Source of the DNA: Verrucomicrobiota bacterium
GTDB taxonomy: Bacteria > Verrucomicrobiota > Kiritimatiellia > CAIQIC01
Length of the DNA: 64,000 bases
Assembly (NCBI GenBank): GCA_004321905.1
Contig: SCQF01000053.1
Location: 1-64,000 of the forward strand
Reading direction: 5' to 3'
Translations under genes and position numbers: made by a program
Notes under the pieces: model-generated
Databases searched by the model: none
The model's input: the letters and a program-made list of their open reading frames with translations, nothing else
Told to the model about the DNA's origin: nothing
In this document: piece after piece, positions 6,310 to 51,844 of the stretch
How positions within the stretch are numbered: position 1 is the stretch's first letter
Layout: each line of letters starts with the position of its first letter

Positions 6310-6371
6310 GGTAGGGCGAGGCATCCCAGCGAGCCGCGTTATAACGGCTCCGCCGAAGGCGTCGCTCCACC
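6310..6371. repeat. 26-bp-arm inverted repeat, GGTAGGGCG family
   Basis: ggtagggcgaggcatcccagcgagcc...ggctccgccgaaggcgtcgctccacc. Confidence 0.75.
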
Positions 6372-7946: not shown

Positions 7947-8069
7947 GGGGAGCGCACGCGCCCTCGCGTGCGACAGACCGCGCCCACGCGGTTTGCACGA
8001 GGAACCGGATTACCCCCGAAGCGTGAGGCGAGGCGCCTCACGTCGCACGCGAGGGCGCGTGTGCTCCCC
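7947..8069. repeat. long inverted repeat with 28-bp arms (27/28 match)
   Basis: ggggagcgcacgcgccctcgcgtgcgac (7947-7974) vs gtcgcacgcgagggcgcgtgtgctcccc (8042-8069); inner gtgaggcg/cgcctcac. Confidence 0.85.
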
Positions 8070-22537: not shown

Positions 22538-22588
22538 TTTTCCAAGGCTTGGAAAAACCGCGCGTTGTGTTTTCCAAGCCTTGGAAAC
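22538..22588. repeat. 19-bp palindrome pair (period 32) between divergent speA and lnt
   Basis: ttttccaaggcttggaaaa (22538) and ttttccaagccttggaaac (22570). Confidence 0.92.
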
Positions 22589-22620: not shown

Positions 22621-24225
22621 ATGCCCCACATGCTCACGCGTTTTCAAATTTGGTCGCGCCGCGGCGCTGCGATTTTGTCCGGCGCGCTATTGGCGACAGC
22701 TTTTCCGCCGCTGGACTGGAGCGGCGTGGTGTTCTTTGCGCTCGTACCGCTGTTGTTGGTGTTGCGTGGCGAATCGGCGGGCGGCGCGTTCCGGCTCGGC
22801 TGGCTCGCTGGCGCAACGCAGTGGCTGGTGACGGTCTTCTGGTTGCACCACGTTTCGTGGGGTGGCTGGGTCGGCTTGGCGTTTTATTGCGCGCTCTATC
22901 CCGGTTTCTTCGCGCTGATCGCCGCCGCATTGTGGCGTGGGTGCGGCGAAAATCGGCTGGGCCGTTTTTTTCTGCCGCCGGTGCTGGCGGTGGCGTGGGC
23001 GGGGCTGGAATGGATTCGCGGTACGTTCGGCACCGGCTTTGCCTGGTTGCCGTTGGCGGCGAGTCAGCACCTGAATCTGCCGCTGTTGCAACTGGCCGGG
23101 TGGGGCGGCGCCTATCTTGTTTCTGCGCTGATCGTCTGGCTGAACGTTGCGTTGGCGGTAACGGTGTGTGCGTACAGCGTGGCTCCGCCGGAGGCGTCGC
23201 CCGACCTTGCAACGCATCGGACTTTTCGGTGGGGCGAGGCGTCCCGCCGAGCCGTGCACACCGAGTTACTGTTCGCCTTGGTGGTGCTGGCCGTGGCGTT
23301 GGCCTATGGCTGGCGCGTGTTGCGTACGCCGCAGGACAACAGCACGCTACTCAAGGTGGCGCTCGTTCAGCCGGCCATCCCACAAATGGATAAGTGGACG
23401 CCGGAAATGGTGGAGACGATTTACAATCGGCTCCGTGAGCTGACGAAGCGCGCGCGCGTCGAAAGCAAATCCGACTTGGTCATCTGGCCGGAGACCGCCG
23501 TGCCCGATGATATTCGCAGTAGTCAGGCGAGCTACGACGTGGTCTTTGGTCTCGTCACCAACGGCACGCCGATTTTACTGGGTTCCACCGACACGCTCTA
23601 TCTCGACAGCGGCAAGGCGCGCTACTTCAACAGCACGTTTTTGTTCAGCACCAACGGCGTGATTGCGGGCACCTATGACAAACAGCATCTCGTGGCGTTT
23701 GGCGAATACATTCCGCCGCTGCTGGGCTGGCTGACGCCGATTGAGGATAGCTTCACTCCGGGCACAACGAGTTTTGTCTTTCGGCTGGCGCGGCCCGCGG
23801 TGGACTTTTCCACGTTGATCTGTTTTGAAGACACGGTGGCGGAGGTCGCCCGCGGTTTCGTGCTGGCGGGCGCGCGACTACTCGTGAACATGAGCAACGA
23901 CGCGTGGTTCGATCCTTCGGCAGCGTCGCATCAACACATGTTGCACAGCGTTTTGCGTGCAGTGGAAAACCGCGTGCCGGTCGTACGCTGTTGCAATACC
24001 GGTGTCTCCTGTTGCATAGACCGGTTCGGTCGTGTATATGACGCGGTCGCCGCGGCACAGGCCGTGTCGGGTTTTCAGAATACCGTGGTCGCCGTCCCCG
24101 ATCGCACCGCGCCGTTGACGTTTTTTGCGCAGCATGGTGATTGGTTCGGTCCCGGTGCGGCGAGCGTCGCCGGATTATTGACACTCGGCGCGCTCTGGCG
24201 GCGGCGCAAAGAAGGAAACAACTAA
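22621..24225 (+). CDS. lnt: apolipoprotein N-acyltransferase
   Basis: N-terminal TM helices, WPETAVPDD, CFEDTVAEVAR, MSNDAWFDPSAASHQHM. Confidence 0.93.
   Translation: MPHMLTRFQIWSRRGAAILSGALLATAFPPLDWSGVVFFALVPLLLVLRGESAGGAFRLGWLAGATQWLVTVFWLHHVSWGGWVGLAFYCALYPGFFALIAAALWRGCGENRLGRFFLPPVLAVAWAGLEWIRGTFGTGFAWLPLAASQHLNLPLLQLAGWGGAYLVSALIVWLNVALAVTVCAYSVAPPEASPDLATHRTFRWGEASRRAVHTELLFALVVLAVALAYGWRVLRTPQDNSTLLKVALVQPAIPQMDKWTPEMVETIYNRLRELTKRARVESKSDLVIWPETAVPDDIRSSQASYDVVFGLVTNGTPILLGSTDTLYLDSGKARYFNSTFLFSTNGVIAGTYDKQHLVAFGEYIPPLLGWLTPIEDSFTPGTTSFVFRLARPAVDFSTLICFEDTVAEVARGFVLAGARLLVNMSNDAWFDPSAASHQHMLHSVLRAVENRVPVVRCCNTGVSCCIDRFGRVYDAVAAAQAVSGFQNTVVAVPDRTAPLTFFAQHGDWFGPGAASVAGLLTLGALWRRRKEGNN
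23181..23253. repeat. 26-bp-arm GGTAGGGCG-family inverted repeat inside lnt
   Basis: ggctccgccggaggcgtcgcccgacc...ggtggggcgaggcgtcccgccgagcc, 21/26 complementary. Confidence 0.75.
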
Positions 24226-24228
24226 ATC

Positions 24229-25348
24229 ATGTTGGACGATATCAAAGAACGTTTGCTCAAGCTGAAAGGTGCCCTCGCAGAAATGCGCGGGTATCTTTGA
24301 CGTCGAAAAACGCCAAGCACAAATGGCCGAATTGGAAGCGCGGGCGGCGGCTCCAGAATTCTGGAACGACCAAACCAAGGCACGCGAAACGATTGACCAG
24401 ACGAACGCCTTGCGCGCCGTCGTCGAGCCGTTTCTAAACCTCGCCAGGCAGGCCGATGATCTTGGCGTCCTGATCGAAATGGCCGAGGGTGAGCAGGACG
24501 CCACCCAACGCGCTCAATTTTTGCAAGAAGTGGCCGCTGAGTTGGAGCGCGCCGAAAAATCTTTCCGTCAATTCGAGTTGCAAGCACTGCTGGGCGGGAA
24601 GCTCGACCGCAACAACGCCTACGTGAGTTTGAACGCCGGCGCCGGCGGCACCGAAGCGTGCGACTGGGCCTCCATGTTGCTCCGCATGTATGTCCGTTAC
24701 GCCGAAAGTCACGGCTTTCGGGTGGACTTCATGGAATACACCGCTGGCGAGGAAGCGGGCGTCAAAAGTTGTACCTTGCTCATCAGCGGCCCGTTCGCCT
24801 TCGGTTATTTCAAGGCCGAGCGCGGCGTCCACCGGCTCGTGCGCATCAGCCCGTTCGATTCCAACAAGCGTCGGCATACGTCCTTCGCCGCGCTTGATAT
24901 CGTGGCCGAAGTGGATGACAACATTGAAATCGAAGTGCTCGACAAAGATTTGCGCGTGGATACCTATCGCGCCGGCGGCGCGGGCGGACAGAAGGTCAAC
25001 AAAACCGACTCCGCCGTCCGCTTGACGCACATCCCGAGCGGTGTCGTCGTGGCGTGTCAGGCCGAGCGCTCGCAGCACGCCAACCGTAACAAGGCGATGA
25101 AGCTGCTCAAGGCCAAACTCTACGAAATCGAGATGGATAAAAAGCGTAAGGAACAAGAAAAGCACTACAGCGAAAAAGGCGATATCGCGTGGGGCCATCA
25201 GATTCGCTCCTACGTTTTGCAGCCCTATCAAATGGTCAAAGATTTGCGCACCGATGTCGAAACCAGCCAGACGCAAGCCGTGCTCGATGGCGATCTTGAC
25301 GCCTTTATTGAGGCCTATCTCAAGATGCGCCGCGGCCAGGAAGATTAA
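24229..25348 (+). CDS. prfB: peptide chain release factor 2, programmed +1 frameshift
   Basis: ORF MLDDIKERLLKLKGALAEMRGYL ends at TGA 24298-24300 in CTTTGAC; +1 frame gives DVEKRQ...; AGGAGGQKVNKTDSAVRL. Confidence 0.96.
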
Positions 25349-26261: not shown

Positions 26262-26322
26262 GGTAGGGCGACGCCTCTGGCGGAGCCGCGAAGGACGGCT
26301 CACCGGGACGGTTCGCCCTACC
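26262..26322. repeat. 26-bp-arm GGTAGGGCG-family inverted repeat
   Basis: ggtagggcgacgcctctggcggagcc...ggctcaccgggacggttcgccctacc. Confidence 0.8.
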
Positions 26323-43267: not shown

Positions 43268-43318
43268 TTTTCCAAGCCTTGGAAAAACCGACACCCGACT
43301 TTTCCAAGGCTTGGAAAA
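43268..43318. repeat. 19-bp palindrome pair (period 32) abutting the lepB start
   Basis: ttttccaagccttggaaaa (43268) and ttttccaaggcttggaaaa (43300), two perfect copies. Confidence 0.95.
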
Positions 43319-43319
43319 T

Positions 43320-44420
43320 ATGAACTTCTGGGAACGTCGAAAATACAAGAAACTGGTTGAAGCGCTTTTGCACGACGCGCAACACACGCGCGGGATGCGC
43401 GAAGACGTCGCCGATCCCGCCGACCTCGACCGGATGGAAGGCCTCGAACAGAAATTACGCGACGCCTTGAAGGCCCGGGACGCCAAAGGTGTAGACGCCT
43501 GCGCCGAAGAGCTTGGCCAGATGCGCATGAAGATTGCGCCGCCGCGCAAATATCCGGGTTGGCGCGAGAATATCGAGATGTTTATCGTCGTGCTGGCCGT
43601 CGCCACGGGCATCCGCGCCTATTTCATCTCGCCGTTCAAGATTCCCACCGGCTCGATGCAGCCGACGCTCAACGGCATCACCGCTGTGGCGCAAACAGAG
43701 CGCGGCTTGATGGATTACTTTCCGCTCAACATCGCCAGTTTTCTGCTGTTCGGCGAACGCTATGTTGAAGTGCGCGCACCGGAGTCCGGAGAAATCAACT
43801 ACGTGCAGGGCGGCGAGGAATTTTATACGTTTGCCAACCAAGGACGCACCGTCCAAATTCCGAAAGCGTTTTTCGATGAAAGCAACCGCAGTACCTGTGT
43901 CTTTTTCCGTTATTTTGGAAGCGACGTGGTCGAGAAAGGGCAACTGCTGGCCGCCGGGCGCGTGCGCACCGGGGACATGATCATGGTGGATCGTGTCCGG
44001 TACAATTTCCTGCCGCCAAAACGTGGCGATGTGATTGTGTTTCGAACGAAGAATGTCCATCATGCAGGTGTGCGTACGACCGATCATTATATCAAGCGTC
44101 TGGTCGGCTTGCCGGGTGAAACCATCCGGATTGATCCGCCATATCTGGTCGTCAACGACAAGAAAGTTGAACAACCGTTTCCTTTCCACCGACTGCTGAC
44201 CGATCCGCGCTATGTTGGGTATACCTTGCCAGTCGGTTCAATGCTCGACACGCCCGCAGATTCGATTAAGGTCGGCTCCAACGAATTTCTGCCGTTTGGC
44301 GACAATACGCGATCGAGCCTTGACGGTCGCTACTTCGGGCCTGTGACCCGGAACGACTTACTCGGTCCAGCCTTTATGGTCTTCTGGCCATTCACGGGAC
44401 GCTGGGGCTTGGTTCGCTAG
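43320..44420 (+). CDS. lepB: signal peptidase I
   Basis: PFKIPTGSMQPTL (Ser box), MVDRVRYNFLPPKRGDVIVF, KRLVGLPGE, GDNTRSSLDGRYFGPV. Confidence 0.93.
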   Translation: MNFWERRKYKKLVEALLHDAQHTRGMREDVADPADLDRMEGLEQKLRDALKARDAKGVDACAEELGQMRMKIAPPRKYPGWRENIEMFIVVLAVATGIRAYFISPFKIPTGSMQPTLNGITAVAQTERGLMDYFPLNIASFLLFGERYVEVRAPESGEINYVQGGEEFYTFANQGRTVQIPKAFFDESNRSTCVFFRYFGSDVVEKGQLLAAGRVRTGDMIMVDRVRYNFLPPKRGDVIVFRTKNVHHAGVRTTDHYIKRLVGLPGETIRIDPPYLVVNDKKVEQPFPFHRLLTDPRYVGYTLPVGSMLDTPADSIKVGSNEFLPFGDNTRSSLDGRYFGPVTRNDLLGPAFMVFWPFTGRWGLVR

Positions 44421-46222: not shown

Positions 46223-46273
46223 TTTTCCAATCCTTGGAAATCGGCGGGCGCACTTTTTCCAAGCCTTGGAAAA
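46223..46273. repeat. 19-bp palindrome pair (period 32) between divergent glgA and rnr
   Basis: ttttccaatccttggaaat (46223) and ttttccaagccttggaaaa (46255). Confidence 0.93.
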
Positions 46274-46330
46274 CCCGCCGCGATTCCTATTCGTCAAACC
46301 ATCGGCTTTGATTTATAATCCTTGAAACGC

Positions 46331-51780: not shown

Positions 51781-51844
51781 GGCAGGGCGAAGCCTCTGGC
51801 TGAGCCGACAACCACCGCAGCTCGGCGGGACGCCTCGCCCTACC
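51781..51844. repeat. 26-bp-arm GGTAGGGCG-family inverted repeat
   Basis: ggcagggcgaagcctctggctgagcc...gctcggcgggacgcctcgccctacc. Confidence 0.78.

Follow-up and report, generated by a model that had tools for sequence, protein, structure and literature searches.

A GTAG-type REP dimer probably carried in frame by the lnt gene of a Verrucomicrobiota bacterium

Mobile palindromes inside genes

REP units of the GTAG superfamily consist of a GTAG tetranucleotide followed by an imperfect palindrome (PMC3733652; PMC8266576). Their dimers are named HH when GTAG lies outside and TT when it lies inside (PMC3733652). Di Nocera 2013 reports REPs inside open reading frames (ORFs) in several species, those of the GTAG kind being found mostly in Opitutus terrae, a member of the Verrucomicrobia. 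More than half of the intragenic GTAG units form dimers or groups, they code for 20-30 amino acids, and flexible linkers or loops were suggested as the sites that receive them (PMC3733652). The classical case of palindromic elements lodged in coding genes is that of Rickettsia (Ogata 2000, 2002; PMC10969869).

The locus considered here belongs to a stretch of 64,000 nt of contig SCQF01000053.1, which we call the window. There, lnt, the gene of apolipoprotein N-acyltransferase (Lnt), carries an insert. We consider it highly probable that this insert is a TT dimer of GTAG-type REPs, of the class mobilised by RAYT transposases, acquired after the split from the sister species and carried by the protein as a disordered loop. 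As with the GTAG REPs of Di Nocera 2013, its family associates a tag with an imperfect palindrome of about 20 nt, its stems covary, and HH dimers predominate with some TT ones; as in O. terrae, copies reside inside genes, and the tag has decayed to GTGG, a change reported for most GTAG-20 elements of that species (PMC3733652). Some features differ from the cases described there: the host is of the Lentisphaerae type, lnt is not one of the targets that the text of that article names, and, consensus figures apart, the exact sequence family of the lnt units is absent from it too (PMC3733652). REPINs mobilised by RAYTs (PMC3116915; PMC8266576) are also inverted pairs of REPs, and a RAYT gene of a sister species lies between such pairs; by contrast, the lnt copy has its tags inside, both of them mutated, and the RAYTs of this genome are only distant ones. 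The outward tags and single long hairpin of a strict REPIN, which the lnt copy lacks, are present in most of the sister copies. Palindromic elements of Rickettsia resemble the present family in being mobile DNA tolerated in frame within unrelated conserved genes (PMC10969869). The lnt element acts like them, but we reject its membership of their family: they are about 100-150 bp long and encode a conserved peptide, RPE-4 and RPE-6 being of CGTC type (PMC10969869), whereas here we have 73 nt, a GTAG type and more than one reading frame.

Intragenic REPs and TT dimers are already known, then; what is new is the host group, the target gene and the empty-site evidence. The lnt case sets the making of protein sequence from non-coding mobile palindromes in a phylogenetic frame, outside Rickettsia and Opitutus. 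The step of lipoprotein maturation that depends on lnt is essential in E. coli-type bacteria.

The lnt gene and its extra loop

The gene and its insert are laid out as follows in the window.

22630..24225, + strand: lnt, apolipoprotein N-acyltransferase, 531 aa (TIGR00546, PF20154, PF00795, same-genus orthologues)
23110..23178, + strand: codons of the TM6 helix, before the insert, residues 161-183 (AlphaFold helix H161-183; hydropathy)
23181..23206, - strand: REP unit A', the reverse complement of GGTCGGGCGACGCCTCCGGCGGAGCC, with the degenerate tag GTCG (26-nt family consensus)
23207..23227, + strand: spacer TTGCAACGCATCGGACTTTTC, 21 nt (unmatched by other genome copies)
23228..23253, + strand: REP unit B, GGTGGGGCGAGGCGTCCCGCCGAGCC, with the tag GTGG (0 mismatches to the pooled pattern)
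23260..23322, + strand: codons of the TM7 helix, after the insert, residues 211-231 (AlphaFold helix H211-231; hydropathy)

On the + strand the reading frame begins upstream of 22486 and stays open as far as 24225. Position 22630 is the likely start codon: the alignment with the same-genus orthologues starts near residue 8 of the protein that begins there, while an N-terminus from 22486 would only translate a TTTTCCAAGGCTTGGAAA-type intergenic repeat. Palindromes of the form TTTTCCAAGGCTTGGAAAA are scattered over many places of the window (for example 22538-22587, 43268-43322 and 46223-46277), often in pairs whose members are about 32 nt from each other; one such pair directly precedes lnt, and can be mis-translated as an N-terminal FFQGLEKP extension. 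Downstream of lnt comes prfB, coding for release factor 2, with its classical programmed frameshift site GGGTAT CTT TGA C (window 24295-24300).

The product has the make-up of a genuine Lnt, namely an eight-TM membrane domain followed by a nitrilase-like domain with a Glu/Lys/Cys triad. Its match to TIGR00546 reaches 276 bits for a cut-off of 133, and a single frame contains both LNT_N (PF20154) and CN_hydrolase (PF00795). The earlier note, made from the letters alone, had described an open frame with catalytic motifs after the insert; the frame is indeed uninterrupted, and E288, K351 and C398 (numbered from the 22630 start) are invariant across a 29-sequence alignment and aligned with the triad motifs of the E. 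coli enzyme in a comparison with PDB entries. Built from an alignment of 29 sequences, an AlphaFold2 model has a mean pLDDT of 89 and a pTM of 0.90, and Foldseek retrieves the Lnt of P. aeruginosa and that of E. coli as its top matches (E 3e-25). We reject the view that this lnt is a pseudogene, and its product, insert included, would still be a working enzyme.

Within this well-predicted fold, residues 181-210, between helices 161-183 and 211-231, are of low confidence and mostly coil, with a mean pLDDT of about 50-62 over residues 185-209, framed by confident helices. The earlier note had asked for a prediction of topology, and the insert is placed between TM6 and TM7; the encoded peptide and the hydrophobic segment which that note had read after the insert are both correct. 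Of the eight TM helices of E. coli Lnt, H7 and H8 are bridged by a periplasmic domain, and both ends of that protein lie in the cytoplasm (PMC5500888). In the present protein, the same topology makes the H6-H7 loop cytoplasmic, so that insert and active site would be on opposite sides of the membrane. The REP-derived residues are thus predicted to form a cytoplasmic coil between TM6 and TM7, across the membrane from the active site.

Comparison with orthologues shows what is extra in this loop. We aligned 29 of them, the four nearest being three from the same genus and one (G004) from the same family. The same-genus genes are found on Lentisphaerae MAG contigs CAISWQ010000016, CAIWHP010000045 and CAITZM010000093, and their products are 72-73% identical to this Lnt over the matched stretch. 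Where the sister proteins read ...HEYRLAGAERRRPANTALL..., ours reads ...CAYSVAPPEASPDLATHRTFRWGEASRRAVHTELL..., and the sister loop is exactly 16 aa shorter, as it also is in G004. Both the extra residues and the REP are absent from all 29 aligned orthologues, none of which carries the same residues without the nucleotide repeat, the observation by which the earlier note proposed that its reading could be refuted. That note had anticipated a lineage-specific insertion of about 25 aa: the lineage specificity stands, and the size has to be brought down to a net 16 aa. A search of genome contigs for a nearer lnt returned the same three close sister species only, with no closer empty or filled site.

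As to the element itself, it is indeed present in frame at 23181-23253, where the earlier note had placed a repeat copy. It is a TT dimer of two 26-nt units with their tags inward. The earlier note had called the copy inside-out with respect to the others, and rightly so, since paired copies measured in this genome comprise 15 HH and 2 TT; it had further given both inward ends as GGTGGGG, which suits one of them only, the other reading GGTCGGG. Unit A' has two mismatches to the pooled pattern and one to the A consensus, with none expected by chance; the variant of unit B is found again at C36:137104. Each half-site has three matches in the window (three mismatches allowed at most), against none in 100 dinucleotide shuffles, and the pooled consensus has seven against none in 20 shuffles. 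Searching Rfam at this place retrieved no RNA family. The 21-nt spacer TTGCAACGCATCGGACTTTTC, found in no other copy in this genome, may be a remnant of lnt codons.

The coding properties of the element are worth spelling out. The forward unit is read CGG TGG GGC, while the consensus tag would give CGG TAG, a stop; the GTGG variant is needed in this frame for that reason. GTGG is common among the B units of this genome, however, so that the change of tag need not stem from the avoidance of a stop. The inverted unit is free of stops in all three frames. We propose that a TT dimer of GTAG-type REPs, of the RAYT/TnpA-REP HUH transposase class, came to lie in the TM6-TM7 loop, and that this would have happened after the split from the three sequenced sister species. 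Translation would then run through the insert, carried as a disordered loop, owing to the 48-nt net change, the stop-free inverted unit and GTGG in place of GTAG. That the element is tolerated as a protein insertion, as the earlier note suggested, finds indirect support in the open frame, the triad and the Lnt fold with its low-confidence coil. The insert is probably neutral, and this copy would be immobile, both its tags being degenerate.

The repeat family and its transposases

The family obeys the framework GGTAGGGCGA-nnnn-TCy-n'n'n'n'-GAGCC, with stem variants CGCC/GGCG, GGCG/CGCC, ACCC/GGGT, AGCC/GGCT, GCTC/GAGC and others. Stem positions covary, 559 of 840 being paired when shuffling gives a mean of 330 and a maximum of 370, in a set whose signal is weakened by spurious loose matches. 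In agreement with the GTAG superfamily, we find GTAG 5' of the palindrome (the lnt units having GTCG and GTGG), an imperfect palindrome with compensatory changes in its stem, and a multicopy, mostly intergenic distribution with HH and TT dimers. Three HH dimers are located in the window.

6310..6371, no strand assigned: HH dimer, tags outward (half-site matches)
26262..26322, no strand assigned: HH dimer, tags outward, downstream of prfB (half-site and pooled-pattern matches)
51781..51844, no strand assigned: HH dimer, tags outward (half-site and pooled-pattern matches)

Twelve further HH dimers are present in this genome. The second TT copy, at C18:79098-79149, has its B' and A units abutting, with a spacer of zero. 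The genome contains 17 exact occurrences of GGTAGGGCGNNGC, and pattern searches, on which all genome-wide counts rest, yield 34 consensus units against one for a reversed control pattern. Relatives have from 0 to 194 units (0-1 for the reversed-pattern controls), and the pattern is present in 24 of 36 genomes, our own included; judged by these matches, the family is widespread in the class of the host. A different inverted pair, of GTAGGGC type, GGTAGGGCGCGCACGCCGTGCGCGCC..., is found at 2425-2478 of the window, and an identical unit adjoins a RAYT in G002 (L193).

The link with RAYT genes, of the Y1/HUH type, comes from relatives. In G003, of the same genus, a RAYT ORF (C5:17822-18301, motif MPDHVHLI) is flanked on both sides by HH dimers of the family, and RAYT relatives are also found among such REP units in G033 and G008. 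Across the 36 genomes, the REP copy number rises with the similarity of the best RAYT (Spearman 0.69, p 4e-6, uncorrected for relatedness). We infer that the family of the lnt units is mobilised by a RAYT. The association is absent from the genome under study. Its RAYTs are all remote (best E 2e-14), and no REP of the family lies within 1.5 kb of any of the six Y1 transposase genes that Pfam PF01797 finds there. With distant RAYTs, and with no such REP near the Y1 loci examined, this genome may carry relic copies, or else the cognate RAYT may lie in the few percent missing from the draft.

Origin of the insert and recurrence in other genes

How the dimer came into lnt is a question distinct from what it is: the two alternatives that we discuss at once bear on the mode of origin only, and leave the identity of the units unchanged. 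The element is 72-73 nt long for a net gain of 48 nt (16 aa), so that either about 24 nt of the host loop were lost or replaced, or the units came separately. Two single REPs might have been inserted independently around original lnt codons, now the 21-nt spacer, the TT appearance being fortuitous. The net gain of 48 nt is about twice 24 nt, no other copy in the genome has this spacer, and the loop of L036 is slightly better aligned with two 8-aa gaps than with one (33 against 27); yet L033 prefers the single gap (32 against 29), L034 and L035 score nearly equally both ways, and the inward A'-B pairing recurs at C18:79098-79149 without a spacer, which makes of the dimer a recurring unit. We regard this double event as possible, if on the doubtful side. 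Somewhat easier to entertain, though still short of an even chance, is the insertion, as one unit, of the B'-A junction that arises when an HH dimer is circularised or repeated in tandem. The C18 copy is an exact B'|A abutment with zero spacer, as expected from a joined HH element, and Di Nocera 2013 connects HH and TT dimers with circular intermediates that are processed in alternative ways (PMC3733652). Against this, the tags of the lnt copy are 21 nt apart rather than 0-3, and this spacer is absent from the other copies.

Two further readings would change the nature of the insert altogether. In other bacteria the stability of mRNA is influenced by REP hairpins, and the insert has been retained in frame; one might thus imagine that it was selected for a useful effect of the peptide, or of an mRNA hairpin, on Lnt. 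This appears very improbable, as the insert is known from one species only among those sampled, is disordered in the model, and has similar counterparts in unrelated proteins. Finally, the assembly is a draft of 85 contigs and the host loop is GC-rich, which might evoke a fortuitous GC-rich similarity or an assembly artefact. Chance similarity is ruled out by the lack of any match in shuffled sequences, and unit B fits the pooled family pattern without mismatch; lnt continues to either side of the insert within a single contig, is 73% identical to its same-genus counterparts, and has Pfam domains before and after the insert. We give this last explanation hardly any weight. A RAYT-class REP dimer, probably neutral, is the reading that we retain.

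The lnt copy has companions. At least four further in-frame copies were found in Pfam-recognised genes of this genome, under a criterion (an ORF open across the REP, with Pfam support) which frame-breaking insertions escape, so that the count does not gauge a preference for frame.

C81:80026-80088: in-frame REP copy in a PMT/TMEM260-like membrane protein (Pfam support)
C82:43152-43212: in-frame REP copy in a U32 peptidase (Pfam support)
C81:5560 region: in-frame REP copy in an ABC transporter ATPase (Pfam support)
C53:6868: in-frame short REP unit in a GH20 hexosaminidase (Pfam support)

A B12-radical SAM protein of G002 has an in-frame copy, as have, in G003, a type ISP restriction-modification protein and a PDDEXK nuclease-domain protein; long ORFs of G003 that run over REPs without Pfam support were left out of the count. 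The PMT-like gene is the most telling: in this genome it has a dimer of exactly 63 nt (21 aa) where the loop of G001 is empty (PLLR|LRPF), G003 has a related dimer there, and G002 an unrelated inverted pair of the GTAGCGGCGACC type. This inter-helix loop (L003 766-2352 G000:C81; L094, L095, L096), filled in three same-genus species and empty in a fourth, appears from these sequences to be an insertion hot spot for two REP families. It is conceivable, and we put it forward tentatively, that REP dimers of this genus repeatedly colonise tolerant loops and so keep supplying conserved proteins with loops of varied length, lnt offering one snapshot of the process. Because empty and filled sites coexist within one group of genomes, one can test directly how REPs insert into coding DNA and at what cost.

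Entire transposase genes are also found within or next to coding sequences of this contig. In alaS (L010/L218, G000:C53:24536-27694), a whole RAYT-like Y1 transposase ORF of about 200 aa, with the motif CVMPDHVHLLF, sits in frame between FNRTLDRGIE... and FAFKLYDTYGFPLDLT. Two genomes from another genus of this family (L219 in G004, L220 in G005) have such an ORF in alaS too; at this site the same-genus G002 has a short linker only, and G001 and G003 have other inserts. The 3' end of an apparent RdgB/HAM1-type NTPase gene runs on in frame into a second Y1 transposase, which is bordered by palindromes of the GTGGGCGGGGCTTCCAGCCCCGCG type (L011, G000:C53:13993-17295). The window also contains, at 7947-8069, a 28-nt inverted repeat, GGGGAGCGCACGCGCCCTCGCGTGCGAC, 96% complementary, which nearly matches the borders of the alaS-internal transposase and is, by this likeness, a putative MITE-like relative. 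Lastly, positions 239-2391 of the window display direct duplications spaced by 1086 nt and 74-84% identical, which correspond to a gene segment duplicated either internally or in tandem.
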